Source of the DNA: a virus
Length of the DNA: 64,000 nt
IMG/VR virus record: IMGVR_UViG_3300022821_000012
Location: 1 to 64,000 of that record
Strand: one strand, 5' to 3'
Of this stretch, positions 10,537 to 63,930 are shown piece after piece (the stretch's first letter is position 1; every line of letters starts with the position of its first letter). The notes under the pieces were generated by a model. It saw nothing but the letters and a program-made list of their open reading frames with translations. It was not told where the DNA came from and made no database searches. A program made the translations under genes and the position numbers.

Positions 10537-11953
10537 ATTTGATTTTTCCTTTCTTGAAACTAAATGCGAACACCGCAATGATTATAACCATTAAAATCAA
10601 GAACAGCGGTCTTTCTATGAGGGTAGTGAAATCGTATAGGGTTGTAAGTTGTATCGATAATGCTTCTACTTTGCTTGCTAGAATAAATGCAACCAACAAC
10701 GCCGGTCGTGAATATTTATATCTTTTCATACCCACTCCAAAAAAACTAAAGAATGCCAACACCGCAAAATCTTCCCATCCACCCGTGTATTGCATACACG
10801 CCCATACTATCATTACCAATAACAACGGAAAATAGTATATGTATGGAATACTCGTGATTTTGCATACGGTATTAACGAATATTAATGAAATGATACCAAC
10901 GATTAGGGTGGCGGCAAGAAAACCGATACTCATACTTTGAAAAAACTGTGTGTCATTCATAAGGTCAGGTGAACCCAACTCTATGCCAAGATACGCAAAC
11001 AATCCCATTAGAACCGCTGCGAATGGTGCACCGGGAATACCGAACAATACAGTCGGAATCATACTGGTAGCTTTTTGTGCATTATTAGAGCCTTCAGGTC
11101 CAATCACGCCTTTGATGTTGCCGTTACCAAACTCTTCATTTGGGTTACTTGCAACAGCCTGTGAATACGATAACCAATCACTGACCGATCCGCCAAGACC
11201 CGGCAATAATCCAACAAGCGCACCTATAAATCCACCACGCATCGATAACCATTTGTTATCCCATACTGCCTTCATTCCTTCAATAGTTTCACGTTTTGCA
11301 ACCGTTGTGGTGGCACGGCGTTTCTTAAAACCTTCAAGCAACTCGGGAACCGCAAATAATCCTGCCACCACTGGAATCAACTGGATACCATCTTGTAAAT
11401 AGAACCATCCCATTGTGAAACGGGGGTCATTGGTAGCTGGGTCAACCCCTACTAATCCAAGGAAGATACCAGCACCAATGGCGATTATACTCAATAGTGG
11501 CTTGTCTGTTGAAAGAAACCCCACTGTCGCCAATGCCAATACAGTGAACGCCCATAGTTCTGGTATACCAAAGATTAATATGACTTGACTGTATATAGGA
11601 AGTAACAGGAACACGATAGAACCCCAAAATAATCCGTTGACCGTAGATGTGGTGACGGCGGCAGAAATGGCATAACTTGCCCGACCCTGTTGTGCTAATG
11701 GAAATCCGTCAACCATCGTGGCTGCTGAACTATTGGCACCGGGAATACCCAATAAGATACTGGTGAAACTATCGGCGGTTGTTGAGGCCGCTACCACCGC
11801 CATTAAGAATACCACGCCCGCATATGGGTCAGCCAATAAGAACGGCATTACTGCATACAATGCAACCAATCCTGTGGTCGCACCCGCTGCTGGAACGATA
11901 CCAACTATAAATCCATAAAGAATACCCGCTATTAATGCTGCTGCTATAATCAC
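10529..11953 (-). CDS. tctA: TctA-family tripartite tricarboxylate transporter permease
   Basis: This 474-residue, highly hydrophobic protein has about ten to twelve transmembrane segments. TctA hallmarks are the repeated glycine/proline loops GIVPAAGATTGLVALYAVMP and LVGLLPGLGGSVSDWLSYSQ, plus LLGIPGANSSAATMVDGFPL. It would move a carboxylate across the inner membrane with the TctC-like protein next door. The small TctB subunit gene is not found between or beside them, so either the host supplies it or the phage system works without it. The length is close to normal (about 500). Confidence 0.93.
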   Translation of the reverse strand: MIIAAALIAGILYGFIVGIVPAAGATTGLVALYAVMPFLLADPYAGVVFLMAVVAASTTADSFTSILLGIPGANSSAATMVDGFPLAQQGRASYAISAAVTTSTVNGLFWGSIVFLLLPIYSQVILIFGIPELWAFTVLALATVGFLSTDKPLLSIIAIGAGIFLGLVGVDPATNDPRFTMGWFYLQDGIQLIPVVAGLFAVPELLEGFKKRRATTTVAKRETIEGMKAVWDNKWLSMRGGFIGALVGLLPGLGGSVSDWLSYSQAVASNPNEEFGNGNIKGVIGPEGSNNAQKATSMIPTVLFGIPGAPFAAVLMGLFAYLGIELGSPDLMNDTQFFQSMSIGFLAATLIVGIISLIFVNTVCKITSIPYIYYFPLLLVMIVWACMQYTGGWEDFAVLAFFSFFGVGMKRYKYSRPALLVAFILASKVEALSIQLTTLYDFTTLIERPLFLILMVIIIAVFAFSFKKGKIKYA

Positions 11954-12489
11954 GGCTTATACACTGCCACCCATACATCATCGGTTTTTGGAGATTGTTG
12001 ATGCCACGCTAGATTATGTAATGCCGCAAAATCCAGCATAAGTTGATTCTGTTCTTCGATACGTGCATACATAAGTTTGTCGTTAACGTACCAATCGTAG
12101 TTCGGATATGTAATATTCCATCCACCCGCTTGTTTCCACCAATCAAAACATTGTTCTGAATCTCGCCACACAAAGACAATCCAATCATCGGGGAATACTC
12201 GCTGAATCTCTGGTAGTTTATATACCCATTCGTGTGACTTCAATAATGGAATACCTTCGTCCGAATACGGCTTCTTTAAAATCCAATCATCTACAAGGGC
12301 TGGAAACTCCATACCTGTGCCGAAATATGCACCTATATGACCACTGAACTTGCCGTGGCTGTATTGCCTATATGGCGTTCTGTCCGATGTATCAAATCCG
12401 TGATTCTGCTCGAACTTCTGGGCAACACCGCTCCACTTGCTTCCCGGCGCACCTGTATAGAAGATTTTTTCTGGTAATAATGAAATCAT
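11950..12489 (-). CDS. sulfotransferase-like protein
   Basis: Started at the ATG at 12489, the protein has 179 residues. The N-terminal IFYTGAPGSKWSGVAQ resembles the PAPS-binding P-loop-like strand-loop of sulfotransferases. DDWIVFVWRDSEQCFDWWKQ resembles the second PAPS-contact region with an Arg-Asp-Ser, also seen in such enzymes. The fold assignment is tentative. The gene is divergent from a methyltransferase-like gene across a shared palindromic late-type promoter, which suggests joint late expression. Confidence 0.6.
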   Translation of the reverse strand: MISLLPEKIFYTGAPGSKWSGVAQKFEQNHGFDTSDRTPYRQYSHGKFSGHIGAYFGTGMEFPALVDDWILKKPYSDEGIPLLKSHEWVYKLPEIQRVFPDDWIVFVWRDSEQCFDWWKQAGGWNITYPNYDWYVNDKLMYARIEEQNQLMLDFAALHNLAWHQQSPKTDDVWVAVYKP

Positions 12490-45712: not shown

Positions 45713-45835
45713 CTTATTCCATCCCATTCCCACATACATGGTTCGCATGTTGTAGTTATGCGTTGACCCATCTGTTTTTTACAATAAATCTGTGCGTTTG
45801 CATAAATCCTGCCAAAACTTTTCTTTATCGTCCAT
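45713..45835 (-). pseudogene. frameshifted member of the Cys-rich family
   Basis: From the ATG at 45835 the frame reads MDDKEKFWQDL and soon stops. The next frame then encodes the rest of a family member: YANAQIYCKKQMGQRITTTC with EPCMWEWDGIRE. One base near 45805-45811 separates the two halves. Either a real frameshift or a base error. Its ATG overlaps the end of the member at 45825-46016. Confidence 0.7.
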
Positions 45836-46016
45836 AACAATGTTCGCCATTCCACTCCCAATACTCGTCACGCCCCCCACTACATATTGTCATGCCCACT
45901 GGATTCATACAATCGCTTAGTAAACCCGATGAAGCGAAATGAATACAGTTGCGGCAACCTCGTCTATTCAACGGCGGCTTTGATAAATCCTGCCAAAACT
46001 TTTCCCTGTCGTTCAT
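45825..46016 (-). CDS. tiny Cys-rich protein of the MNKxxFW family
   Basis: The protein has 63 residues from the ATG at 46016, which overlaps the upstream HNH stop (ATGA). MNDREKFWQDLSKPPLNRRG, CRNC and two further Cys, then YWEWNGEHCYGR. The head is nearly identical to that of the frameshifted neighbour (EKFWQDL), so the pair is a recent duplication. Confidence 0.82.
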   Translation of the reverse strand: MNDREKFWQDLSKPPLNRRGCRNCIHFASSGLLSDCMNPVGMTICSGGRDEYWEWNGEHCYGR

Positions 46017-48687: not shown

Positions 48688-48906
48688 TTATTCATTATAG
48701 GTTTTGCCATCCCATTCCCATTGGTTATAAGAGGTGGTAGAGGGATGCTTGTAGGATGTGCATCTGGACAGTAGGCTTGTCCCGGCAATGTCGGGATGGG
48801 AGCATCCAATCCCACTCTCATATTTACATGTATTGCATCCATATTCATTAAATACAGGCTCAGTCAATGTATTCCAGAACTCTTCTTTTTCTTTATTCAT
48901 ACTCAT
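48688..48906 (-). CDS. tiny Cys-rich protein of the MNKxxFW family
   Basis: The protein has 72 residues from the ATG at 48906 (or 48900): MSMNKEKEEFWNTLTEPVFN, then CNTC, two more Cys, and QWEWDGKTYNE. It converges on the sbmA-like gene. It is closely similar to the next member (EKEEFWNTLTxPVFxxYGCxTCKY), so the pair is a tandem duplication. Confidence 0.85.
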   Translation of the reverse strand: MSMNKEKEEFWNTLTEPVFNEYGCNTCKYESGIGCSHPDIAGTSLLSRCTSYKHPSTTSYNQWEWDGKTYNE

Positions 48907-49132
48907 AATCGTGATAGGTTTCACCATCCCACGCCCATAGATTATTGTTAGTCATGGATGGATGAATCCATGAATTGCAAACATCATACCGTATATTATC
49001 GGGGTGCCGACACTCCCCCTTCTTCGTGACATTTTCTTTATATTTGCAGGTTCCACATCCATAAGCCTTAAATACAGGATCGGTCAATGTATTCCAGAAC
49101 TCTTCTTTTTCGCTATTCATATTAATACTCAT
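48893..49132 (-). CDS. tiny Cys-rich protein of the MNKxxFW family
   Basis: The protein has 79 residues from the ATG at 49132 (an alternative at 49120 gives MNSEKEEFW): NSEKEEFWNTLTDPVFKAYG, CGTC, C-R-H-P-D and a fourth Cys, and LWAWDGETYHDYEYE. The end overlaps the next member by 14 bp. Confidence 0.85.
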   Translation of the reverse strand: MSINMNSEKEEFWNTLTDPVFKAYGCGTCKYKENVTKKGECRHPDNIRYDVCNSWIHPSMTNNNLWAWDGETYHDYEYE

Positions 49133-49412
49133 CATCAGGCATAGTTTTACCATCCCATTCCCATGCATTGTCTTTATGCATTAGATCGTTCGGGGGCGTG
49201 GTTTGGCACACCATACAGGGTTTGTAATCGTACGTCTGGTCATGGTCCGCCCCCCATCCTTTAGGATTACCATGCTCGGCGTATTTACAAGAGGCGCAAG
49301 TGTGCCTGTGAAATATAGGTTGACTCAATGCTTGCCAGAATTCTTCTTTATTCATTCGTTTGGCTTTTACAGTGGGTTCTGAGAGGGCCTTGAAAAATTG
49401 TTGTTTGTTCAT
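49122..49412 (-). CDS. Cys-rich family member with duplicated head
   Basis: The protein has 96 residues and carries two family heads in a row: MNKQQFFKALSEPTVKAK and then MNKEEFWQALSQPIFHRH. One normal core follows (CASC, CMVC) and AWEWDGKTMPDDEY. The double head looks like unequal recombination between two neighbouring copies. Confidence 0.82.
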   Translation of the reverse strand: MNKQQFFKALSEPTVKAKRMNKEEFWQALSQPIFHRHTCASCKYAEHGNPKGWGADHDQTYDYKPCMVCQTTPPNDLMHKDNAWEWDGKTMPDDEY

Positions 49413-50668: not shown

Positions 50669-51688
50669 TTAGCTACGATGTAAGTCAAGTGTGCAACAAT
50701 GAATCCCTCCACCAAGTGTTCGTGCCATATCCATTGGCGTGTCAATAACCTCAATGCCGTGCGCTTCAAGTCGTTTTTTAATGTATGGTTGTCCTGATTC
50801 CATCAACACCAAACCCGGCTCAATAACCAATAAGTTCAATGCAATCCACTTAGACGCATACGGGTAGTCTTTGAAATATTGTGCCACAACTTCTTCTTCG
50901 GTAATGTAAATCTTTTCCCAATCCTTAAAGACCTTCGGGCAGTTGCTTTCATTTACACGATTGGCATTAAGCATAACCAATCCTTCTTTAAGCGGACAAA
51001 TAGTGCTATCGATATGAGCATAACTATATAGGTTATCAAGAATATGAACGGTCTTATCAGGTAGCATTTGCTGTAACCATTCGCCGCCACGATAGTTACC
51101 TGTCTCACTTACAAGGTATAGTAGATCATCATTCACCCTGCATACGTTTGCTGCGTCGAAGATAGGATAGTCTTCGGTAAGTATCATCTTGTTATTGTCG
51201 TGGTCAAGTTTGAAATCATCATCGAATAATGCTGGTTTAGGTGCACTGAACCATACTGCCCCATCCTTTATTGCATCTCGTTTAATGTGTTCGTATCCTT
51301 GGAACTCATACCAACGGCTTCTATACGCCATTGGTGTTTCAATGACACGGTTGCCGACTACTAGTAGAACGTCACGTGGACAATAGCCATACATACCGTC
51401 GGTTTCCCAATAGTAGTTGTTATGTGTTTCACGGTAGTCAAGTTTCGCTGGGACTCGTGTTTTGATTCCATATTGCTCAAGACGAAGAACGATATCCATA
51501 AGGTTCTCGGTCGCCTTAGTTTTAACTTTCTTATCAAAGTTTCCTTGTGGCAACGATGTTTCTTTCCATTTAGTAGTGATGGATTGCATACTGAATAAAG
51601 GGTCTTCGGTAGGGAAACGGGCAAAGTTGGATACACCAACCACCACATCATGTAACTTATCCCATTCGTTATTGCTATTTACTATCAT
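50669..51688 (-). CDS. glycine amidinotransferase-like enzyme
   Basis: The protein has 339 residues from the ATG at 51688 (a TTG at 51694 is possible). Family motifs are EWDKLHDVVVGV, an acidic DNNYYWETDG-like core, YPIFDAANVCRVNDDLLYLV (catalytic Asp region), YAHIDSTICPL (His) and the C-terminal Cys in LGGGIHCCTLDLHRS. It transfers an amidino group from arginine to an amine acceptor, or acts as a hydrolase. It is an unusual phage enzyme. A C-terminal remnant of a second copy lies at 9366. Confidence 0.88.
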   Translation of the reverse strand: MIVNSNNEWDKLHDVVVGVSNFARFPTEDPLFSMQSITTKWKETSLPQGNFDKKVKTKATENLMDIVLRLEQYGIKTRVPAKLDYRETHNNYYWETDGMYGYCPRDVLLVVGNRVIETPMAYRSRWYEFQGYEHIKRDAIKDGAVWFSAPKPALFDDDFKLDHDNNKMILTEDYPIFDAANVCRVNDDLLYLVSETGNYRGGEWLQQMLPDKTVHILDNLYSYAHIDSTICPLKEGLVMLNANRVNESNCPKVFKDWEKIYITEEEVVAQYFKDYPYASKWIALNLLVIEPGLVLMESGQPYIKKRLEAHGIEVIDTPMDMARTLGGGIHCCTLDLHRS

Positions 51689-51875
51689 CTTCAATCTCGG
51701 TTACCAACAATCGCATCAGTTCTTCTTCTATATCTTTGCCCCACGCACTAATACTTCCATCCGAATATTCTACCTCTACGTGATGTCCATCATCGTAATA
51801 TGATACTATATATGGTTTTGGTTCTGGTGGGTCGGCGCAGAGTTCTTCCCAAAACAGTTCTTTATCTTTATTCAT
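51675..51875 (-). CDS. chimera: Cys-family head on a different domain
   Basis: The protein has 66 residues from the ATG at 51875: the family head MNKDKELFWEELCADPPEPK, then an unrelated small beta domain IVSYYDDGHHVEVEYSDGSI and an acidic helix EEELMRLLVTEIEDDSK. The Cys core and WEWDG end are absent. It overlaps its neighbours in the standard way (8 and 14 bp). Confidence 0.75.
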   Translation of the reverse strand: MNKDKELFWEELCADPPEPKPYIVSYYDDGHHVEVEYSDGSISAWGKDIEEELMRLLVTEIEDDSK

Positions 51876-52107
51876 CTTTTCCATTCCATTCCCAATTATC
51901 TTTATATAATGCTCGGGTGGCTCCACTGATTGGGTGTGAAATGCTAGCACAATCAGGGTCTAGCATACGACCATTTTCAGATTTGGTGTCACACACAACA
52001 GAGTAATTTCCCATACCCATATTCGCAAAATGATCAAGATGTTTACAGTTACGGCAGTTATGGTGTGTTGGTTCACGCAATGCTTTCCAAAACTTTTCTT
52101 TATTCAT
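51868..52107 (-). CDS. tiny Cys-rich protein of the MNKxxFW family
   Basis: The protein has 79 residues: MNKEKFWKALREPTHHNCRN, then CKHLDHF, two more Cys (VVCDTKS, DPDCAS) and NWEWNGKDE. Standard member with CxxC plus a second spaced pair. It begins one base before the cupin gene's stop. Confidence 0.85.
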   Translation of the reverse strand: MNKEKFWKALREPTHHNCRNCKHLDHFANMGMGNYSVVCDTKSENGRMLDPDCASISHPISGATRALYKDNWEWNGKDE

Positions 52108-52108
52108 T

Positions 52109-52615
52109 TTAAGTCGCTTTGGTCCATCCTGTCACCTGTAATGTATATCGGGGTTCAATCCCGATGTTTGCGGCAGAATGCTTATTATCGTTCTGCCAAA
52201 CGACATAATCACCAGCTTTCCAGTTAAGACATTCGCCATCAATCTCAAAGATGTGTCCCGGCTTTCGATCCTCTAAGAAGATCACTGCACGATTAATATT
52301 CTCGTTGTGCCATAACTCGTAAGCCTGTTTATATCGTGCGTACAGGTCTGCGTGTTCTGGTAGAATAACGCCTGTTTCCATCACATAATAACTTGTTCCA
52401 ACATCATTCCAATGACGGAAATGTTCTTTGACTAGGTTATTCCAAGACGGTTGTTCCTTGCGGAAATCAGCCATCTTGCCTACATAGTATTTGTGGGTAT
52501 AACCGTCTTTCTTCCATTGATTCAACAACTCAGGGTCATTGAATGCTTCTCGTTGATAATCTAAAAACTTATATTCATCGTCCCAAAACGGTGTCATCTT
52601 TTCTATTTTATGCAT
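52109..52615 (-). CDS. cupin / 2-oxoglutarate oxygenase-like protein
   Basis: The protein has 168 residues from the ATG at 52615, overlapping the upstream stop. VMETGVILPEHADLYARYKQ starts a double-stranded beta-helix, and KAGDYVVWQNDNKHSAANIG with PRYTLQVTGW ends it. The His/Arg pair in HSAANIGIEPRYTL resembles aspartyl/asparaginyl hydroxylase-type enzymes. The substrate is unknown. Its head EKMTPFWDDEYKF faintly resembles the Cys-family head. It lies among surface-sugar genes. Confidence 0.65.
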   Translation of the reverse strand: MHKIEKMTPFWDDEYKFLDYQREAFNDPELLNQWKKDGYTHKYYVGKMADFRKEQPSWNNLVKEHFRHWNDVGTSYYVMETGVILPEHADLYARYKQAYELWHNENINRAVIFLEDRKPGHIFEIDGECLNWKAGDYVVWQNDNKHSAANIGIEPRYTLQVTGWTKAT

Positions 52616-52844
52616 TTTTTCTATCCCATTCCCATAATCTTTTTGCTTTATACGTGTTAAAAGGTCTGCTACTTGTGTTTGCAACCGATGAGTAAATATA
52701 ATCATTATGAACATCGCACATTAATCCAGCCCGCAATGAACACGATGTGGTGCTAACCGTAGCTTCGTTAAAGAAACAGTTATCACACGTTCTTTTTGTT
52801 GGCTGGGTTAGCGCATTCCAAAACTCTTGTTTACTGTCATCCAT
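52608..52844 (-). CDS. tiny Cys-rich protein of the MNKxxFW family
   Basis: The protein has 78 residues: MDDSKQEFWNALTQPTKRTC, DNC, then C-S-L-R and C-D-V-H, and the tail RLWEWDRKNA with Arg in place of Gly after Asp. Its stop overlaps the cupin gene start, its start the DegT gene stop. Confidence 0.83.
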   Translation of the reverse strand: MDDSKQEFWNALTQPTKRTCDNCFFNEATVSTTSCSLRAGLMCDVHNDYIYSSVANTSSRPFNTYKAKRLWEWDRKNA

Positions 52845-53451
52845 TGATAGTTATATCTCGCAAATCAGGATAGTTGAATGGCGGCGGGGATTTGATATCA
52901 CCATCATCCAACATCCGCATACCTTTTATTGCCCATTCAGGACGCATATGATAATGATAACCAATATCAAATACATTTTGGTCAGCCCATTTATCATAGG
53001 TATGAATGTTACGACCATCATATGCCATACGTTTTAAGGTAGCGTAGTCGTCAGCGTTATCTAATAGTATAGCACCACCTGCGCCGATTTGCAATGGTTT
53101 TCCGTGCCCAAAACTAAGGCATTGCTTTTCACGTGGACGGAACATTCCTTCTTCAAATAATCTTGCCGAATCGTATACACTTGGAATGACATCGTATTCG
53201 CCATCTTCTTCCCAATCAATATCCTTAAAGAAATAGTTCTTGTTAATCTTTTTTAACATCATCGGAATACTTAGATATGTTCGGGCTGGCAATGTGACAT
53301 CCCACATTGTATATTCGTGCCGTAAGCACAGTTCCAATGCGTGTGTGCAACAATCTGTTAACACCACATAAGGTGCGCCAGTATATTCCGACAGCATATC
53401 CTCAAAATCTAATAATGCGTCAAACGGGTTTTCATAATCTTCTATAATCAT
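52837..53451 (-). CDS. DegT/DnrJ/EryC1-type aminotransferase-like protein
   Basis: The protein has 204 residues. FEDMLSEYTGAPYVVLTDCC with THALELCL is the N-terminal sugar-aminotransferase pattern. CLSFGHGKPLQIGAGGAILL holds the PLP Lys (SFxxxK...GGAI). The family makes amino sugars, but this protein is about half the usual 370 residues and lacks most of the C-terminal domain, so activity is doubtful. It belongs to the 50-58 kb sugar/surface block. Confidence 0.78.
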   Translation of the reverse strand: MIIEDYENPFDALLDFEDMLSEYTGAPYVVLTDCCTHALELCLRHEYTMWDVTLPARTYLSIPMMLKKINKNYFFKDIDWEEDGEYDVIPSVYDSARLFEEGMFRPREKQCLSFGHGKPLQIGAGGAILLDNADDYATLKRMAYDGRNIHTYDKWADQNVFDIGYHYHMRPEWAIKGMRMLDDGDIKSPPPFNYPDLRDITING

Positions 53452-53672
53452 TCTCTTTCACCATCCCATTCCCATTGTTGTTTATAATGAATAAGTTCAT
53501 ATGTAGTGTGGTCCAATACATCTCTGTTATAGCATAGCCATTTGCCATTTCCCCAAAACGGGCTTTCATCAATACTGCATTTAACAGTAACATAATCGCC
53601 TTTAAACTGACAGTTCATACAAGACTTTTCAGTTGGACCAGCCAATAACTTCCAGAACTTTTCCTTACTCAT
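53448..53672 (-). CDS. tiny Cys-rich protein of the MNKxxFW family
   Basis: The protein has 74 residues: MSKEKFWKLLAGPTEKSCMN, then C-Q-F-K, KCSIDES and LCYNRDV, and the tail QQWEWDGERE. Coupled by 4-8 bp overlaps to the SGNH gene before and the DegT gene after. Confidence 0.85.
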   Translation of the reverse strand: MSKEKFWKLLAGPTEKSCMNCQFKGDYVTVKCSIDESPFWGNGKWLCYNRDVLDHTTYELIHYKQQWEWDGERE

Positions 53673-54411
53673 TTAGAATCTCCATAAAATGTGGTTCCAT
53701 AATGTCAGCAGCGGCAACATGTGCTTCTTCAAGAGGGTGTCCGTATTGCCCCTTTTCAAAGTTGTGTGCATTAGCCCAATATACAAATCCTGTGTCGCCA
53801 TAATCGTGCGGAAACCATTTAAACTTATTCCAGTCAATGCTGTCGTATAGACTTCTACAAATAGATGGACCATTATTCTTTAATGTATTCCAATGTTTGA
53901 AATCGTTCCATCGTTCAGCACAAGAAAACATATACGGGATGTTTCTATTATTCAAATATTCCTGTAGCAATAGGATTTGTGTAAGTGTGTTGTCAAGTTC
54001 ATTCATACTATCAAGCATACGATATTCAACTTCTGCCCACTTGTCGGTGCCGAAGTTTTTGATGCGTTGAACATACTCATCGCCAAAGCACGATGCTACC
54101 GTTTTATCAGACAAGTTTAGGTGTGCGGGTGTTAGGGTATACCAAGGACTATTCTGCTCTTTAGTATCAAATGAACAAATGTAATCATAGCGTGAAAGAT
54201 ATGACCATTGAACTATTACCGCAACATTGTCGTCTATCGTTGATACCCTATCAATAATGCGTTTGGCGATATATCTGTTACCTGCGCCGGGATAGCCTTC
54301 GTTGATATACTCAAATCCACGGCGTTCGGCAATATTTCCAGTCCACGTATTATCAGTATTTTGTAACTCTGCGCCTTGTATCAGGCTACATCCACCAGCT
54401 ATTAGTTTCAT
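53665..54411 (-). CDS. SGNH/GDSL-like hydrolase
   Basis: The protein has 248 residues from the ATG at 54411. MKLIAGGCSLIQGAELQNTD holds the G-x-S nucleophile block, INEGYPGAGNRYIAKRIIDR the G/N block, IVQWSYLSRYD the third strand, and GQYGHPLEEAHVAAADI the D/G-H-P...H block. This resembles the SGNH esterases found in phage surface-modification loci. It may remove acyl groups from sugars or lipids. Confidence 0.75.
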   Translation of the reverse strand: MKLIAGGCSLIQGAELQNTDNTWTGNIAERRGFEYINEGYPGAGNRYIAKRIIDRVSTIDDNVAVIVQWSYLSRYDYICSFDTKEQNSPWYTLTPAHLNLSDKTVASCFGDEYVQRIKNFGTDKWAEVEYRMLDSMNELDNTLTQILLLQEYLNNRNIPYMFSCAERWNDFKHWNTLKNNGPSICRSLYDSIDWNKFKWFPHDYGDTGFVYWANAHNFEKGQYGHPLEEAHVAAADIMEPHFMEILNE

Positions 54412-54605
54412 TCGCCATTCCATTCCCATTTATCAACGCTATTGTCAAGATGCAATCCACGTGAACAATACTTGTTTTCTGGCCAATGCGCCATGTCCAA
54501 ATCTTGAATAAAGCATTCAAGACCATTCTTCTTAATACAGTTCGAACATGTTCGTTGATCATTTGGCGGGATTGTCAATGCTCGCCAAAACTCATCCTTA
54601 TTCAT
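54408..54605 (-). CDS. tiny Cys-rich protein of the MNKxxFW family
   Basis: The protein has 65 residues: MNKDEFWRALTIPPNDQRTC, SNC, LECFIQD, YCSRGLH, and KWEWNGE. It is inserted between the intein-bearing dehydrogenase C-part and the SGNH gene, with ATGA overlaps to both. Confidence 0.85.
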   Translation of the reverse strand: MNKDEFWRALTIPPNDQRTCSNCIKKNGLECFIQDLDMAHWPENKYCSRGLHLDNSVDKWEWNGE

Positions 54606-55123
54606 CTAGTATTTCCATACCAATATGTCTTATGTTGTGAACGTACTTGACGCCAAGGGTCAACAACCACAGAATCTTCTGCGCCTTCGTTAAACGTATC
54701 TTGCGGATGTGCCATTAGATATACAGCAGGTTCGTCAAGGATTACATCATATTGCACATCATCAATATATGATCCAACAAGAATAGAACTTGACCCATCT
54801 TCGTAATCCACACCGGGCTTATAACTTTTGCCCATAATCACAACAGGTAGATTGTAACTAACTAGTTTGTCTGCCATATTCTTGGCTTGTTGTTCACGGG
54901 CATTCATTACCGCATCAAACAAATCGTAGCCAAGATTTAGGTCTTTTGCCATCCAACGTAAAGCAATGTTGTCACGTGGGTGACAATTATGAATTACGAT
55001 TCCAGTGTCAGCACACATATAAAATTGATCATCTTTATTTTCATGATTGGGTTCCACTTCTAAATTGTAAACATCACCATTGTATTCAGTTATTTCAATA
55101 TTTGTAATTCGTTCAGTTGTCAT
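54602..55123 (-). CDS. intein-C half plus C-extein of the nucleotide-sugar dehydrogenase
   Basis: The protein has 173 residues. Residues 1-46 are an intein C-half: NGDVYNLEVEPNHENK then MCADTGIVIHN, with the terminal His-Asn of block G. Splicing joins at Cys47 (CHPRDNIALRWMAKDLNLGY), the dehydrogenase's catalytic Cys. The remainder is the C-terminal UDP-binding domain (VVIMGKSYKPGVDYEDGSS). Its partner is encoded at 55991-57064. The start overlaps the homing endonuclease stop by 4 bp. Confidence 0.93.
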   Translation of the reverse strand: MTTERITNIEITEYNGDVYNLEVEPNHENKDDQFYMCADTGIVIHNCHPRDNIALRWMAKDLNLGYDLFDAVMNAREQQAKNMADKLVSYNLPVVIMGKSYKPGVDYEDGSSSILVGSYIDDVQYDVILDEPAVYLMAHPQDTFNEGAEDSVVVDPWRQVRSQHKTYWYGNTR

Positions 55124-55935
55124 ATTTTAATTCCTAAGTTTTCTAAATCTCGTTTAAATAATAATTTAATTGGATTATTTGGGTGTTGTTCTTTTAGTAG
55201 ATCAAACTTGGTTGGTTCTTTGCTGTGCCAGTAATCAGATTTAACATCTATATAGCACTTCCATTCATTCACATAAAAATCAGGATAATAATTTCGTTCT
55301 TTACCATTTGCATCCACATAAGGGATACGTCCTATATGACAACTAAATGTCATATTGTTTCTATCTAACCATTTAATAAATGCTAATTCCCATGTTCCTT
55401 GAACTTTGTACAATTCACCATTCGAATGGACGTAATCATGCCAAACACATTTTCCTGTTGTATTAGCGCCTATATATTTTCCGTCCTCCCATGCTTTTTT
55501 TGATCCTAATGAATATTTCTTTCTTTCTTCTTTTGTCATTCGTTCTGAACGGGTTTTTCCTACCTTTTTTTGTGTTTCTGGATTTTTCATTGGGTTATTA
55601 TCTCCAATCATTCTTCCAGTTTTAGCACAAATATTTTTCATCATTATTGACATTTCCTGTCGTTTTTTTGGGTCACTCCACACCTTTTTTAATGCGTCTG
55701 ACATCTTTTTTATTTTCTCCGGACGGTTGTTTAATATCGACCGCCAACATTTATTACAATAATCCTTGTCAAACAGATCAACCTTTGTCATCTTGGTGTA
55801 ATGTGATAAATCTCGTTCGTGTATTAGATCGCATTTGTCGCATTTCAATCGGATCATCTTTGTACTACAATAAACAGTCTTGTTTTTTTTCTTATCTATC
55901 CATGAATATTTTCGTCTAAATTCTTCTACTATCAT
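55120..55935 (-). CDS. free-standing homing endonuclease in the fractured gene
   Basis: The protein has 271 residues. A zinc-finger-like start (CDKCDLIHERD, YCNKCW) is followed by NUMOD3-type DNA-binding repeats (GDNNPMKNPETQKKVGK, YSLGSKKAWEDGKYIG). The C-terminal Vsr/PD-(D/E)xK-like nuclease is WELAFIKWLDRNNMTF, YYPDFYVNEWKCYIDVKSDY. It resembles the endonucleases known between split-intein halves in marine metagenomes. It has its own late box and ribosome site. Confidence 0.88.
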   Translation of the reverse strand: MIVEEFRRKYSWIDKKKNKTVYCSTKMIRLKCDKCDLIHERDLSHYTKMTKVDLFDKDYCNKCWRSILNNRPEKIKKMSDALKKVWSDPKKRQEMSIMMKNICAKTGRMIGDNNPMKNPETQKKVGKTRSERMTKEERKKYSLGSKKAWEDGKYIGANTTGKCVWHDYVHSNGELYKVQGTWELAFIKWLDRNNMTFSCHIGRIPYVDANGKERNYYPDFYVNEWKCYIDVKSDYWHSKEPTKFDLLKEQHPNNPIKLLFKRDLENLGIKI

Positions 55936-55953
55936 TATGTATCTCCTATACTT

Positions 55954-55961
55954 TATTTATA
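55954..55961 (-). promoter_or_regulatory. late-type promoter for the homing endonuclease
   Basis: TATAAATA on the minus strand, 18 nt before the ATG at 55935, with TAGGAGA between. It makes the endonuclease and intein-C part transcribable independently of the N-part. Confidence 0.72.
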
Positions 55962-55990
55962 CAAAAATACATAACAAGTACCGTTATCAC

Positions 55991-57064
55991 CTATAAAATA
56001 AATAATTTATCTGTTTCTTTGATGTCTTCTGCCTTTATAATAATTCGTTTTCTTTTTCGTTCTACTGGAATTAAATGATCTTTTGTAACTGATATTTTCT
56101 TTCCAGATTCGGTAGTAAAAGTATACAATGGGCCGCTATATTCTCGCATAGTAACATCGGCAATTTTCTTTTGGTCTTTCTTTGTTCCTGCCCAATTCAT
56201 TGAATCTACGATATAATATTCAGTGTCGTTAAATGTGTTATATAACTCGCTGATTTCAATATGTGCGTCATTTACATTAATTTTAAAGTCAGATTTAACA
56301 CAAGCACCCCCATCGCCCATGCCAGCCTTCATATACATAGGTGACATAATACGGTGTGTTGAATGCGCAATGGCATCTGTAACTACATCAACATTGATAT
56401 TGCCTTGCTTTTCAGCAACGTCTTGAATCATATTCACAAGACCGATTTTTGTAGAAATGAATGTATTGTAGAAAATCTTCACGCATTCCATTTCATCCCA
56501 TGTTCCGACAACATAACGTGGGTCATTATCCATAACGGTTTCATAGAAATCAATCAACTCTCGTGCTTCAGTTGTTTCATCGCCATCTTTAGTACCAATC
56601 ATTACCATTTCTGGATTGACCATATCCCATCCAACTGTTCCCATAGCGATTAGGTATGGATTGTATACAAAGCGATTACGTGGAATCACATCAATAAGCT
56701 CACGGCGAACTGTGCCGGGTAGCACGGTCGATACAAGGACCACCAGTGTCTGGCGATTACTATAACGATTAACTTCTTTCATCACATCTTTAACAATGGT
56801 GTAGTCAAAATCTTTTGGTGGCAAATGCGCAGTTGGGTATCGACCATCATAAGATTCTTCGTGGGGTGTTGGAACTGCGATAAATAAAATATCAGGGCGG
56901 TTACTGTAGTCGTGGTGTATTAAATCTTTGATTGATTCCACACTAGTAACCAAATCTGACTTGAACCCTTGGATATCATAACCGGTAACAGTATGACCTT
57001 TTTTAGCAATTTCTTCAGCGCACGGCAAACCAAGTTTACCAAGCCCTATAAACGATATTTTCAT
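55991..57064 (-). CDS. N-extein of a nucleotide-sugar dehydrogenase plus intein-N half
   Basis: The protein has 357 residues. Residues 1-254 are the N-part of a UDP-glucose/GDP-mannose dehydrogenase: NAD-binding KISFIGLGKLGLPCAEEIAK, LFIAVPTP, VLVSTVLPGTVRRELIDVI, FYNTFISTKIGLVNMI, and the end KAGMGDGGA. Cys255 begins a 103-residue intein N-half: CVKSDFKINVNDAHIEISEL, block B GPLYTFTTESGKKISVTKDH (TxxH), ending in its own stop. Trans-splicing with 54602-55123 gives an active enzyme (GDGGA-CHPRD). Confidence 0.95.
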   Translation of the reverse strand: MKISFIGLGKLGLPCAEEIAKKGHTVTGYDIQGFKSDLVTSVESIKDLIHHDYSNRPDILFIAVPTPHEESYDGRYPTAHLPPKDFDYTIVKDVMKEVNRYSNRQTLVVLVSTVLPGTVRRELIDVIPRNRFVYNPYLIAMGTVGWDMVNPEMVMIGTKDGDETTEARELIDFYETVMDNDPRYVVGTWDEMECVKIFYNTFISTKIGLVNMIQDVAEKQGNINVDVVTDAIAHSTHRIMSPMYMKAGMGDGGACVKSDFKINVNDAHIEISELYNTFNDTEYYIVDSMNWAGTKKDQKKIADVTMREYSGPLYTFTTESGKKISVTKDHLIPVERKRKRIIIKAEDIKETDKLFIL

Positions 57065-57077
57065 ATTGGAGTGTCCT

Positions 57078-58142
57078 TTGTATGATGTTCTTAATTATAG
57101 CATTTCCATAGCTGAATTTCTATATAAAAATGGGTTTGGCATATATAAAAATGTATATTTTGAAGACCCCGGCACGGTTACCGATTGTTATTTAGACATT
57201 CAGGTGAGTCATTCGGCGAATAGTGTAAAGTCATCCTTTATAAATATATTCGCCGCCAATGAACCAAACTTTTCATATGATAAAATACCACAACTGAGAA
57301 CTGCGAGAGGTTCCAAGAAGAAACTAATCCTTATTAGTGATTACAACAATGACTATAAGCAAACATTTGAAGGGTGCGGGTCGTTCGAAACAGTTTATTT
57401 TTTCTTTCAAGGATATTTAGCATTACGGTGGTATAGAAACTATAGACATTATAAACCATTCGACACCTTTGAATATAAGTATAACAGTTCAAGTCGTATC
57501 ATAGAAGGTATGCGAGATTATCGTTTGTATCTATCAAGCATCCTGCCCGACCCACATACCAATCAAGTAAGCTGCTCAGATATATGTCCATTCAGCAACA
57601 AAACCATTGACGAAATATTGGATAACCAATACTGCTTTTTAAACGAACATCAAAAGGCATCTGTGCGTAAAGCAAGCTTCCCATATCGGTATGATCACTT
57701 AGATAATCCTATCCCAAATACAAGTTTTGAGATTGATTGGGTCACGCAATCTAAATCATTCCTTCATGTAGTAAACGAAACAGTTTTTTATGAGAAATTC
57801 AATCACTTAACGGAAAAGATATTCAAACCCATCGCACTACAACGTCCATTCGTATTAACATCAACACCCGGTTCATTAGCTTATTTGAAACGATATGGCT
57901 TCCAGTCATTTGACAAATGGTGGGATGAAAGTTATGACCTTGAACTTAACCCACGCCGCAGACTTGATATGATCGCAGAAGTTGTAAAGTATGTCAACTC
58001 ATTATCTATGGATGATCTACACACAATGTATCATGATATGAAACCTATCCTAGAGCATAATAACAATCTATTTTACGGAGAGTTCGAAGATAGTATCCTC
58101 CAAGAACTAATAGTTAACTATCAACGGGCAGTCTATTCGTAA
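57078..58142 (+). CDS. glycosyltransferase-like protein
   Basis: The protein has 354 residues from a TTG at 57078, 6 nt after GGAG; a TTG at 57066 is also possible. FLHVVNETVFYEKFNHLTEK, IFKPIALQRPFVLTSTPGSL and YGFQSFDKWWDESYD form the LTEKxxKP...RPF...G.L..LK..GF pattern of fucosyltransferase-like (GT10-type) and phage glycosyltransferases. It is divergent from the dehydrogenase with about 13 bp between, so sugar precursor and transferase may act together on virion, host surface or DNA. Confidence 0.78.
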   Translation: MYDVLNYSISIAEFLYKNGFGIYKNVYFEDPGTVTDCYLDIQVSHSANSVKSSFINIFAANEPNFSYDKIPQLRTARGSKKKLILISDYNNDYKQTFEGCGSFETVYFFFQGYLALRWYRNYRHYKPFDTFEYKYNSSSRIIEGMRDYRLYLSSILPDPHTNQVSCSDICPFSNKTIDEILDNQYCFLNEHQKASVRKASFPYRYDHLDNPIPNTSFEIDWVTQSKSFLHVVNETVFYEKFNHLTEKIFKPIALQRPFVLTSTPGSLAYLKRYGFQSFDKWWDESYDLELNPRRRLDMIAEVVKYVNSLSMDDLHTMYHDMKPILEHNNNLFYGEFEDSILQELIVNYQRAVYS

Positions 58143-58417
58143 TGTTTATATATGTAATAGGTGGCGTGGATGGACCACAAAAAATAGGGTTCAGCAATGA
58201 TGTTGATACAAGGTTAGCTGCACTACAGACAGGTAATCCCACTAAACTAAAAATACATTATTATGCGGAAGTGCCAGAGAAACAAGTTCGCCTTATAGAA
58301 TCAGAAATACACAAAGCAAACCGTCACACTAGGGTATCAGGTGAATGGTTTGATATCACACCAGATGAAGCCATTGCCGAAGTGCAATACGGTGTTATAC
58401 GTTGGTGTGATGATTAA
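58142..58417 (+). CDS. T5orf172/GIY-YIG-like small protein
   Basis: The protein has 91 residues. IYVIGGVDGPQKIGFSNDVD, RLAALQTGNPTKLKIHYYAE, then ESEIHKANRHTRVSGEWFDI match the T5orf172 (GIY-YIG superfamily) pattern (YV....xxKIGxSxDxxxRLxxLQTGNP...GEWF). It overlaps the glycosyltransferase stop by one base. A nicking or DNA-associated role is likely but untested. Confidence 0.85.
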   Translation: MFIYVIGGVDGPQKIGFSNDVDTRLAALQTGNPTKLKIHYYAEVPEKQVRLIESEIHKANRHTRVSGEWFDITPDEAIAEVQYGVIRWCDD

Positions 58418-60630
58418 TCATCATTTTTCTTAGTATCAAATAAGTCTTTGTTTAGTAATTATGGTTATTATCGTAGTCGTGTAAATCATCTGGCAGGTCA
58501 ACTTTACTTTCGCCATCGCCCCAGTTCATTGTATCATCATCTTCTGTAGGTGTATGATCTGTCCATCCATTGCCGTTGCTTTCATCAGATGCTTCAGCAT
58601 TCACCCAATCGTTTTGAACATCACCATCACGTTCTAATCCAAATACGAAGTCGGCTTCTTCATCGTTCTTTTGCGAATCCTTCGCATCGCCTTCAGCAGA
58701 CCCATCGTTCTTTTCCATTCCCGAATCTTTGCCTTCGCCGCTTCCTTTCCCAGAACCGCTTCCAGATTTTGAGCCACCTTTTCCGTGTCCTGAATCGTCG
58801 TTATCTTTGCCATCTTTATCCTTGCCTTTTCCAGAACCAGAATCCTTTCCATGACCCGAACCTGAACCAGTATCTTTATCTTTTCCAGAGCCAGAATCCT
58901 TTCCATGTCCTGAACCAGACCCTGATCCACTTCCTGAACCTGAACCGTGTCCCGATCCACCGCCATTAGGGTCTTCGTAGTTTTCTTCACCTTCATCAGT
59001 TAAATCATCTTCAGTCGTTAGGTTCACTGTTGAACTTACTTCATCGTCACCGTCAGTGATTGTATATCCAAATGATGTCTCGCCATTCCAATTCTCGTCA
59101 GGCGTAAATGTAAACAGTTGTTCGTTAGCATCGTATGTCAATGTGCCGTTAGATGGCTGATCAAACGATACCAAATCCAATACATCACCATCAAGATCAT
59201 AATCATTTTCAAGAATATCATCAAGGTAAAACTGCGTAGCTTGATCTTCTACACCAGTAAAGGCATCTTCATCAGCGAATGGTGTTGTGTCTTGGTCAAT
59301 GATTTCATCACGTTCAATGAATGTTTCATCTGTTGTTGTTTCGGTAGTAATAATCGGATCACCAACCACCGTTTCAGTTGTTCCATCGGAATAGGTCAAC
59401 GTGGTTGTTGGTGTCGTTGTATTTGTTACAGTCGTTGTAACCGATGTTGTGTCAGTGAACTCACGTGTGGTGACTTCAGTTGTCGTTCCATCTTCATTTT
59501 GAACAGTAACAGTCACATCTTCATACGTGGTCGTAACAGCAGGGTCAGTAACATCAGTTGACGTTACAGTATCATTTGTGGTAACAATCTCTGGATATTC
59601 GTAATCTGTATTGATTGCTTCAACATTTGTATCAACCGTCACGTTATCACTACTCACCACATCAGCGGCAGGATTGCCATATTCTGTTTCCGTTGTTCCA
59701 TCTGAATACGTCACAGTATACACAGGCGTAGTGGTTGTGGTCGTAGTGGTTGTTATCGTTGTGGTTGTAGTGGTATCTTCATATGTTGAAAGTTTTTCAC
59801 GGTCATTGTCGTAATCAATCTCACGCTCAGTATATGTTTCTGATTGAACATCAACCACAGGATCACCGACAACCACGTTAACGTCTTGAACATATTCAAC
59901 CGTTACCGCCGCATTCTCAAAGGTTGTGAAAGTATCAACGTGTTCTACTTCACGTGTTTATCAACAGAAGTTTCGTCCGTATAATTTCTAGTAACGGTTA
60001 CATCTTCTTCATTGTTTTCTAAATCGTTGGTACGTGAAGTTACGTCTTCATACGTGGTTTCGGTAACAGGATCACTTACAACCGTTACGGTTTCGACTTG
60101 CTGCGTTGTCTCGTATGTAGGTTCTTCGTATGATGTTTCACTGTTAACACTTGCATCACTCGTTTGGTCAACGGTAGAATCTTGGCTAGTAACTGTCGGG
60201 TCAGATTCAGTCATGCTTACCACGTTACCATCTGCATCAGTAATAGTAGTTACTTCAACTTCGTATTGTGTTGTAGTTACAGTGGTTTCGTATGTGTTAG
60301 TGGTAGTTGTATCGGTTGTAACAACTTCACGATTGTTTTCAAGGTCATTAGAACGTGACGAAACGGCGTCAGTGCTAGTATCAACCAGCACTGGATCGCC
60401 TGTTTCTGTTTCACTATATGTGCGTGTGGTTACTGTTACAGTTAGACTGCCATTGCTGGTGCCAGAACCATCACCATCGCCAGAAGATGGATCGTCGCCC
60501 CCACCGTCACCGTTTCCAGTTGTGTCTCCATCTTCACCTTCATCTGTTCCAGTGTCGTCGTCGGTAGTGCTTCCTGTGCTTGTAGTATCGCCACCGTCAT
60601 TAGTGGTGCCGCTAGTGCTAGGGTTTCCAT

Positions 60631-62146: not shown

Positions 62147-62320
62147 TCATTTCATTTTCGTGTAAGTCTTTTTATTCCATACCCATTCATTTAATCGGGT
62201 AGGTGAACAAGTTACGGGTTTTGGCATAAATCGTGATATACACGCACGTGAATAAAAGCAGTTATTACAACTCTTTTCAAATGATAGTCGCTTCCAAAAC
62301 AGTTCTTTATCTTTATTCAT
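62147..62320 (-). CDS. tiny Cys-rich protein of the MNKxxFW family
   Basis: The protein has 57 residues from the ATG at 62320: MNKDKELFWKRLSFEKSCNN, C-F-Y-S, ACISRF, VTCSPTR, and EWVWNKKTYTKMK, a variant tail. First of a run of six family genes at the right end of the window. Confidence 0.82.
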   Translation of the reverse strand: MNKDKELFWKRLSFEKSCNNCFYSRACISRFMPKPVTCSPTRLNEWVWNKKTYTKMK

Positions 62321-62805
62321 TTGGTTACGATTTCCCATAGTTTTTGCCAGTCGCTGCTGTTATATCCCGGTTTATCATACTGTTGGTTATAGCCACCCCA
62401 AAAGTTTAGTCTACCCTTCTCGTTAACCTTACTAAACGTTCCAGCAACAAACCCTCCACCAATCAGCGCAAGATATTGTGTACTATCTGTTTTGATATCA
62501 GGATGGCTATCTTTTCCACCAGCAAGCATATCTACTTCAACAAGTGTTACATTCTTTCTAGTCCACGTGTCATAATCACGCCGCCGTTGTTCAGCCCGCT
62601 GTTCATTTTCAATATTAATACGATCAATGTATGACGGAAGGTTAGGAAACCGTTTTATAATACTGTTAAAAGTATGATGATGTTCGGCTTCCCGTAGATT
62701 AGAATACCCAAACCATTTTTCAAGTTCAAGTCCGAACTCTTCGGTATTCCAATAATCACGGCGTATCGGTGCTTGCAATGCTTCCCAAAACTTTTCTTTA
62801 TTCAT
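62317..62805 (-). CDS. chimera: Cys-family head on an unrelated domain
   Basis: The protein has 162 residues from the ATG at 62805. The head MNKEKFWEALQAPIRRDYW is that of the family, but no Cys follows. Instead there is a helical, charged section (RINIENEQRAEQRRRDYDTW) and a glycine-rich end with GGGFVAGTFSKVNEKGRLNF. It shows that the head is a mobile module, or that the upstream gene end was replaced. Function unknown. Confidence 0.75.
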   Translation of the reverse strand: MNKEKFWEALQAPIRRDYWNTEEFGLELEKWFGYSNLREAEHHHTFNSIIKRFPNLPSYIDRINIENEQRAEQRRRDYDTWTRKNVTLVEVDMLAGGKDSHPDIKTDSTQYLALIGGGFVAGTFSKVNEKGRLNFWGGYNQQYDKPGYNSSDWQKLWEIVTK

Positions 62806-63534: not shown

Positions 63535-63734
63535 TTGTCGCCGTTCCATTCCCAGTTGTCTTCTGGATACAGGTCAGGTTTATTTATCATTTCTGGATCG
63601 TGTTCGTGACACTTCCCACACTTGTTATTATATCCATCCTCTGGCATTGTGCCAGACCGTCTGGCAAACTTACAGTTCAGACAACTTTTATCATACGGTT
63701 CAGATAAAGCCTTGATAAACTCATTCTTATTCAT
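63531..63734 (-). CDS. tiny Cys-rich protein of the MNKxxFW family
   Basis: The protein has 67 residues from the ATG at 63734: MNKNEFIKALSEPYDKSCLN, CKFARRS, KCGKCHEHDPE, DNWEWNGDK. Close paralogue of the 62802 gene. It overlaps the next member by 8 bp. Confidence 0.86.
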   Translation of the reverse strand: MNKNEFIKALSEPYDKSCLNCKFARRSGTMPEDGYNNKCGKCHEHDPEMINKPDLYPEDNWEWNGDK

Positions 63735-63930
63735 CAAAAGTTCCATCCCATTCCCAAAAAGGATAAGTTTGGACCACATTAATAAGAAATATAGCGCATT
63801 CTTCTTCGCCAGTTTCACGTAGACGATAGCATGTATCATTAAAATACTCTCGGTGTCTACAGTTAGAACAACGAGGTTCTGGTATCGGATTGGTTAAAAT
63901 ATTCCAAAACTGGTGTTCTTTTTTATTCAT
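63727..63930 (-). CDS. tiny Cys-rich protein of the MNKxxFW family
   Basis: The protein has 67 residues: MNKKEHQFWNILTNPIPEPR, CSNCRHREYF, DTCYRLR, EECAIFL, FWEWDGTFDE. It heads the run of family genes. The -10 of its promoter ends 6 nt before the ATG, so the message would be practically leaderless. Confidence 0.86.
   Translation of the reverse strand: MNKKEHQFWNILTNPIPEPRCSNCRHREYFNDTCYRLRETGEEECAIFLINVVQTYPFWEWDGTFDE

Follow-up and report, generated by a model that had tools for sequence, protein, structure and literature searches.

A probable mobile trans-splicing element in a phage nucleotide-sugar dehydrogenase gene

We analyzed a 64,000-nucleotide stretch of viral DNA (the window; positions 1 to 64,000 of IMG/VR record IMGVR_UViG_3300022821_000012), whose minus strand carries three open reading frames (ORFs) in series, at 55991-57064 (357 aa), 55120-55935 (271 aa) and 54602-55123 (173 aa). 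The host protein, a nucleotide-sugar dehydrogenase probably of the UDP-glucose type (UGDH), is coded in the first and the third of these, each of which bears one half of an intein (IntN and IntC), and a separate nuclease ORF lies between them. The locus is very probably a mobile trans-splicing element residing in the dehydrogenase gene. Fractured genes with split inteins and a free-standing homing endonuclease were reportedly described from phage metagenomes by Dassa et al. in 2009, with the same order (N-extein and IntN, free nuclease, IntC and C-extein) and the same canonical split position. The first-pass annotation of the window had drawn this analogy, and both gene order and analogy hold; the differences are that the hosts reported for fractured genes are a helicase, RNR and IMPDH, whereas here the host is a nucleotide-sugar dehydrogenase, and that the nuclease, which comes nearest in sequence to T7 endonuclease I, lacks an invariant His behind the PD motif.

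Scans of IMG/VR contigs with the N part, the nuclease, and alignments of the nuclease and of IntN yielded 53 loci on 26 contigs, chosen by the rule that IntN, nuclease, IntC and C-extein all be present; they represent 16 distinct alleles with the same order at the same site, and the window's own phage, at 100%, accounts for three of the 26 contigs. The nuclease is likewise present in every one of the 18 loci that a search by IntN alone had turned up, a set to which the rule was not applied. Given this recurrence, chance or misassembly is unlikely as the origin of the arrangement.

The split dehydrogenase and its intein halves

The features of the locus in the window, all on the minus strand, are as follows.

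56303..57064, minus: UGDH-like N-extein, residues 1-254, ending ...GMGDGGA (TIGR03026, phrog_9148, PF03721, PF00984)
55994..56302, minus: IntN, 103 residues, with Cys1 and block B TxxH (T73 and H76 of IntN) (TIGR01445)
55991-55993, minus: stop codon of the N part
55954..55961, minus: TATAAATA, box resembling a T4-type late promoter, 26 nt ahead of the start of the nuclease gene (motif count)
55120..55935, minus: free-standing nuclease gene, 271 aa, with N-terminal CxxC...CxxC and a PD-(D/E)XK-type domain at about 160-271
55131..55137, minus: TTAGGAA, Shine-Dalgarno-like site within the 3' end of the nuclease gene, ahead of the C-part start
55120..55123, minus: ATGA overlap of the C-part start with the nuclease stop
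54986..55123, minus: IntC, 46 residues, VYNLEVEP..., with His-Asn end (TIGR01443)
54602..54985, minus: UGDH-like C-extein, 127 residues, the first being the +1 Cys (CHPRD) (phrog_9148)
54602-54604, minus: stop codon of the C part

The first-pass annotation had placed three genes in series at these coordinates, which were borne out exactly, and had divided them into a dehydrogenase N-part with a 103-residue IntN, a 271-residue nuclease, and a 46-residue IntC with the dehydrogenase C-part, a division that ORFs and profile searches confirmed. Residues 1-265/267 of the N part matched TIGR03026 and phrog_9148 (E 2.5e-71 for the latter), the TIGR03026 match of 124 bits lying below the whole-protein cut-off of 189.8, the N part being a fragment; PF03721 and PF00984 matched as well. 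In the C part the phrog_9148 match began at residue 46 (E 9e-22), so that the dehydrogenase resumes at residue 46-47. With both intein parts removed, 254 + 127 = 381 residues remain, in agreement with the spliced product of about 381 residues that had been forecast, and these exteins, joined on paper, could be aligned, through the junction and beyond it, with structurally characterized GDP-mannose and UDP-glucose dehydrogenases. By profile matches and alignment the features of the family are present, namely the NAD domain, the central domain and the Cys of the GGxC motif. In the alignment to 1mfz the +1 Cys coincides with the Cys of GGSC; the insertion point thus immediately precedes the codon for the conserved Cys of GGxC, and this Cys becomes the +1 residue. 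It is the catalytic Cys of the family, so that no active enzyme would be expected before splicing.

Class 1 inteins are marked by Cys or Ser at position 1, TxxH in block B, a His-Asn end, and Cys, Ser or Thr at +1. In all 16 alleles Cys1, the block B Thr and His-Asn followed by CHPRD, including the +1 Cys, are kept, and the motifs listed for the window in the first-pass annotation (N-terminal Cys, block B TxxH, VYNLEVE in block F, His-Asn before Cys) hold, as do half sizes fitting those of natural split inteins. Each half was matched by an intein profile. The HMM comparison that the annotation had proposed put both halves over the NCBIfam cut-offs: IntN matched TIGR01445 (intein_Nterm) from residue 255 with 36.3 bits against a cut-off of 24.5, and IntC matched TIGR01443 (intein_Cterm), if marginally, at C-part residues 17-47. 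Over sets of family members, PF14890 matched 6/6 IntN at E<=0.1, the window member scoring 35.5 bits against a cut-off of 35.8, and TIGR01443 matched 7/7 IntC at E<=1 (best 0.00043). When six IntN were combined into a profile and compared with the PDB, the MJ0781 intein (2jmz, E 1.8e-8) and the split NrdJ-1 intein (8ubs, E 0.005) were matched, both of which sit in other host genes.

We propose that the two precursor proteins would be made separately, that IntN and IntC would dock into one Hint fold, and that Cys1 and the +1 Cys would then carry out class 1 splicing to release the intact 381-residue dehydrogenase. Several observations pull the other way. The IntC match is close to threshold (15.7 bits, cut-off 15.6), and PF14890 remained under its cut-off of 35.8 on both parts when these were searched singly (33.2 bits for the N part, 12 bits for the C part). 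The block B His is kept in 15 of the 16 alleles, with Gln in its place in L094, and in an AlphaFold model of the N part, with IntC absent, IntN was poorly modeled (pLDDT about 30-45). Values of dN/dS for IntN are raised in the comparisons of the window with L003 (0.451) and L095 (0.155), at dS 1.3-1.5. Finally, the phage of L104 (G054) has a second dehydrogenase of another type (L104 1-459; G054 11900-12190), uninterrupted at GGACFPKD and about 4 kb from the fractured one, and there the split copy may be dispensable.

These points bear on the idea that the locus is a decayed gene, a dehydrogenase pseudogene broken by insertion of the nuclease, in which the intein halves are non-splicing remnants. 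Intein-bearing nrdA genes of Campylobacter phages have been read as degenerating (PMC3653736), and the weaker constraint on IntN in some allele pairs would fit. We nevertheless regard decay as very unlikely: the splicing residues are kept in 16/16 alleles (the His in 15/16), no internal stops occur in the coding parts of any allele, the nuclease keeping a length of 265-281 aa, and in the L104/L105 pair dN/dS is low for both halves and the nuclease (IntN 0.078; nuclease 0.077; IntC 0.042, from 41 codons) and similar to that of the exteins. Several other dN/dS values could not be calculated, dS being saturated. The window's record, of 100,210 bases, contains a single dehydrogenase central domain, as does its 230 kb assembly; the same holds for 11 of the 12 fractured records tested.

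An enzyme of two subunits that works without splicing has a precedent in nrdA of Aeromonas phage Aeh1, which functions although its coding sequence is divided into two pieces (PMC3653736). In the present case both fragments carry intein halves with splicing residues, and the break passes through the GGxC active-site loop, making this explanation hard to credit; trans-splicing accounts for the locus far better.

Recurrence and movement between phages

Empty and filled versions of the insertion site coexist among related phages. The N-part scan covered the best 80 of at least 599 relatives, a sample from which frequencies are not readable; 8 of these 80 are fractured, including two that belong to the window's own phage, and the remaining 72 (L009-L080) are intein-free, all 72 reading through the site, with L025 ending 12 residues on. 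Altogether 72 empty loci and 16 filled alleles were seen at one site. In INPHARED, 27 records matched the N part, with most alignments ending at or before residue 261 and none spanning the whole IntN; three ran on to 269-291, at 23-26% identity. For the nuclease 38 INPHARED records were matched; identity never exceeded 35%, and no match reached 80% coverage of the query. A single scan of cellular genomes with the C-part alignment gave 13 stretches, of which the 1 confirmed was a Hint domain in a repetitive Omnitrophota protein, not a UGDH.

Direct evidence of movement came from L001 and L005. Between these alleles IntN (312/312 nt), the nuclease (806/807) and IntC (131/131) are nearly invariant (coding parts 99.9% identical), and the short spacer agrees at 46/47 positions plus a 5-nt gap, whereas the exteins are 69-84% and the flanks 52-64% identical; dS is 1.56 for the N-extein and 0 for the element. 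The near-identity stops at the intein edge upstream and about 33 nt past the intein edge downstream. This comparison demonstrates mobility of the element with respect to the gene in which it resides.

Identity of element and exteins is in conflict in other pairs too (element versus extein: L104/L105 94 vs 80%; L008/L105 51 vs 86%; L003/L096 76 vs 51%; window/L085 57 vs 40%). In a quick tree built from 84 extein rows, 6 changes are required to account for the fractured label, and starred branches force 6; even so, the label clusters more strongly than shuffled labels do (mean 13.8 changes). L094, with no N-extein on its contig, was left out of the extein trees, in which placement of the long branches L085 and L096 is unsure.

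An empty allele, L053, was found of the phage that carries the filled alleles L001 and L002. Away from the site, L053 differs from each of these by 1 position per pair in 3048 nt (within a span of 1978 nt upstream and 1150 nt downstream), while beside it there are 6 differences from L002 within the first 15 nt of the C-extein and 9 from L001 within the first 28 nt; the pairs also differ at base -1. Throughout the first 60 nt of the C-extein, every difference from L053 is the L005-type base, and the tract ends once per allele with no interleaving. This pattern is consistent with co-conversion with two tract lengths, as would be expected if the element copies itself between phages, and together with the L001/L005 comparison it points to horizontal spread with co-conversion of the flank.

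Some details of the L053 comparison sit less well with that interpretation. The base at -1 is unlike both L053 and L005, so that L005 is not the exact donor. Farther than 1150 nt downstream L053 diverges, its identity being 99.2% with L001 (2623 nt compared) and 98.2% with L002 (1050 nt compared), and the copy number of a repeat differs. Moreover, an empty/filled pair by itself does not tell gain from loss, and conversion from a third, empty phage could yield L053.

It might be supposed that the split intein is no longer mobile and that the similarity of alleles reflects ordinary phage recombination. Phages do recombine freely, and activity of the nuclease is a prediction. Exchange of longer stretches, though, would carry the exteins along, while the near-identity of L001 and L005 is confined to the intein and about 33 nt downstream, and the differences that separate L053 from L002 and L001 are concentrated next to the site; we consider this account improbable. 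Under the mobile-element interpretation, alleles lacking the intein would be cut by the nuclease during a mixed infection, at the conserved GG(A/G/S)-CHPRDNIA codons, after which repair would copy in the whole element plus a few tens of bases of flank.

The nuclease and expression of the locus

The first-pass annotation had called the middle gene a homing endonuclease. A separate nuclease ORF of 271 aa is indeed there, and its placement can be refined to T7 endonuclease I as nearest in sequence. T7 endonuclease I is a junction resolvase. A profile of seven of the nucleases matched its structures over the nuclease domain (1m0d, E 2.7e-7; 1fzr), with the PD and (D/E)xK residues aligned and the Glu falling just ahead of the local alignment; the window nuclease differs in having an additional Cys-rich and helical N-terminal region and in sitting within an intein element. 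The residue pattern E...D...(D/E)xK of PD-(D/E)XK nucleases is present, and E183, D219, D230 and K232, together with four Cys (C32, C35, C60, C63), are kept in all 16 alleles and in a free-standing relative, L114. The Pfam model Phage_endo_I reached 25.5 bits, under its cut-off of 29.1.

An AlphaFold model of the nuclease (mean pLDDT 77, pTM 0.42) has a restriction-endonuclease-like fold at residues ~160-271. In a fold comparison (VIA) TnsA was matched with Z 8.9 over 107 residues at rmsd 2.5-2.6, and I-Bth0305I (3r3p, rank 7, Z 6.5) and Vsr (1cw0, Z 6.1) also appeared, matches that may reflect only a shared superfamily fold. T7 endonuclease I was absent from the rows of this comparison, and a Foldseek search with the model returned nothing at E<=0.001.

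The EDxHD motif has an invariant His after the PD motif. No invariant His follows D219 among the seven aligned nucleases, and position 237 is Y, H, F or L over the 16 alleles. By motif the window nuclease would therefore stand outside EDxHD/Vsr, the nuclease family introduced with fractured genes (PMC12350094), with deep kinship through the common fold possible. A relationship of a phage homing nuclease to a resolvase has a parallel in F-CphI, which is related to the Holliday-junction resolvase Endo VII; F-CphI, however, belongs to another catalytic family and lies outside any intein element (PMC6083498).

Relatives of the nuclease were sought by a profile scan, of whose 193 confirmed matches 80 were considered. 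Among the matches listed, the close, full-length relatives are all in or beside UGDH genes. Fifty-one loci (L114, L116-L165) lack the full element, and in the 45 records of these put to an intein_Nterm search, which held L114 or more distant relatives, 4 records had a match, none close to the nuclease, with a model that would miss very short IntN halves. L114 (1-1477) has a nuclease of the same family (48% identity over residues 99-267) standing free immediately downstream of an intein-free UGDH gene, which is of another type and keeps an unbroken GSCFPKD site. The C-terminus of this nuclease repeats the end of the adjoining UGDH (DW..KGRAV), which gives the impression that the nuclease was picked up together with part of its target gene.

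The ATG of the C part overlaps the TGA of the nuclease in 14/16 alleles, L085 and L095 being the exceptions; in 13/16 the nuclease gene contains TAGGAAT near its 3' end. Given this overlap and a ribosome site inside the nuclease gene, the second half of the host enzyme would depend on an intact nuclease frame, which would guard the nuclease against loss.

The same overlap is relevant to joining at the RNA level, by a self-splicing intron or translational bypass that would unite the frames before or during translation. Introns are known in phage genes (PMC3653736). Here the C part is provided with a start codon of its own, which in those 14 alleles overlaps the stop of the nuclease, no Rfam match at E<=1 occurred in 53000-58500, and the intein motifs would be left unexplained; the chance of RNA-level joining seems to us close to nil.

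Upstream of the nuclease, NATAAATA is present in 6 of the 11 usable gaps (L094 was not used in the count). It stands within 60 nt upstream of 16/82 ORFs (ATG start, >=80 aa, greedy choice), against 3/82 on the opposite strand, and TATAAATA is mildly enriched in the window (12, against 6.1 expected by shuffling; 3/100 shuffles as high). The TATAAATA/NATAAATA box resembles the T4-type late promoter motif, and the window's phage has a T4-type portal. The TATAAATA box is likely to be such a promoter, in which case the nuclease and the C half may be made late and together. A hairpin was also considered for the gap after the N-part stop, where short inverted repeats seemed recurrent; it was discarded after six gaps had been folded (z-scores -1.2 to +1.2).

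As a fuller account, which we offer tentatively and rate at somewhat less than an even chance, the locus would be an active and spreading trans-splicing element whose nuclease is of the T7 endonuclease I lineage and which keeps itself in place through its catalytic-Cys site and the overlapping start and ribosome site of the C half. In this account the free-standing relative in L114 would indicate that UGDH was already the target of the nuclease before it became associated with a split intein.

Other inteins, neighbouring genes and significance

Other intein-like insertions were seen in these phages. A second, contiguous insert in phage UGDH, at another conserved site (KVFYN / TFISAK), occurs in L087 (1824-3956; also L088) and in L183 (from 3371); L087 has both inserts in one UGDH gene and L183 the contiguous one only. 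The window's phage, in its 230 kb assembly, has a DNA polymerase B divided at YGDTD/SVYFS by another split intein, with no nuclease between the parts (L187 2038-2583 and 2692-3681); its split position and Ser nucleophile are reminiscent of the Aes123 PolB1 intein. The same assembly has a T4-type portal gp20 with a contiguous intein and an HNH-like region (L188 2135-5077). In the phage of L085 there is a second fractured gene, on the minus strand (L189 1566-4952), a Clp-like ATPase broken at Walker A (GPTGVGK), with a short apparent IntN, a free 376-aa ORF that does not clearly resemble the nuclease of the UGDH element, and a long IntC; the arrangement has the look of an intein split in an atypical way.

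Close to the fractured gene, on the plus strand at 58142-58417, lies a 91-aa T5orf172/MUG113 protein, possibly another mobile nuclease. On the minus strand of the window, between larger genes, 13 ORFs open with the pattern M...FW..L; 11 of them are of 57-79 aa, most with C..C and a WEWDG-like end, and Pfam gave no match for the two tested. They lie at the following positions.

45779-46016, minus: M...FW..L ORFs
48688-49355, minus: M...FW..L ORFs
51675-52107, minus: M...FW..L ORFs
52608-52844, minus: M...FW..L ORFs
53448-53672, minus: M...FW..L ORFs
54408-54605, minus: M...FW..L ORFs
62147-62805, minus: M...FW..L ORFs
63727-63930, minus: M...FW..L ORFs

The first-pass annotation knew of no such layout in a UDP/GDP-sugar dehydrogenase. 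That stands for the split form, which appears to be new; inteins in cis are known in the enzyme, the allele 'udp' of UDP-glucose 6-dehydrogenase having been recorded in 7 halobacterial, 2 bacterial and 6 other euryarchaeal cases, among them Halobacteria and Methanocaldococcus (PMC4071816). What is shared with 'udp' is an intein in this kind of enzyme; the 'udp' genes are cellular and are listed as ordinary intein alleles (PMC4071816). We found no report of a split intein in UGDH in the open-licence literature, the partial coverage of which makes this weak evidence of absence. As far as these searches reach, the split UGDH host gene, the nuclease nearest in sequence to T7 endonuclease I and the empty/filled pair are new.

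Natural split inteins of fractured genes have given protein-ligation tools, gp41-1 for example. The spread of two-piece intein elements has been hard to see. Here one family offers 16 alleles of a split-intein pair and a nuclease with a likely target, and in an empty/filled pair of very similar phages the putative conversion tract can be read base by base. With these in hand, the homing of a trans-splicing element becomes directly testable in vitro.

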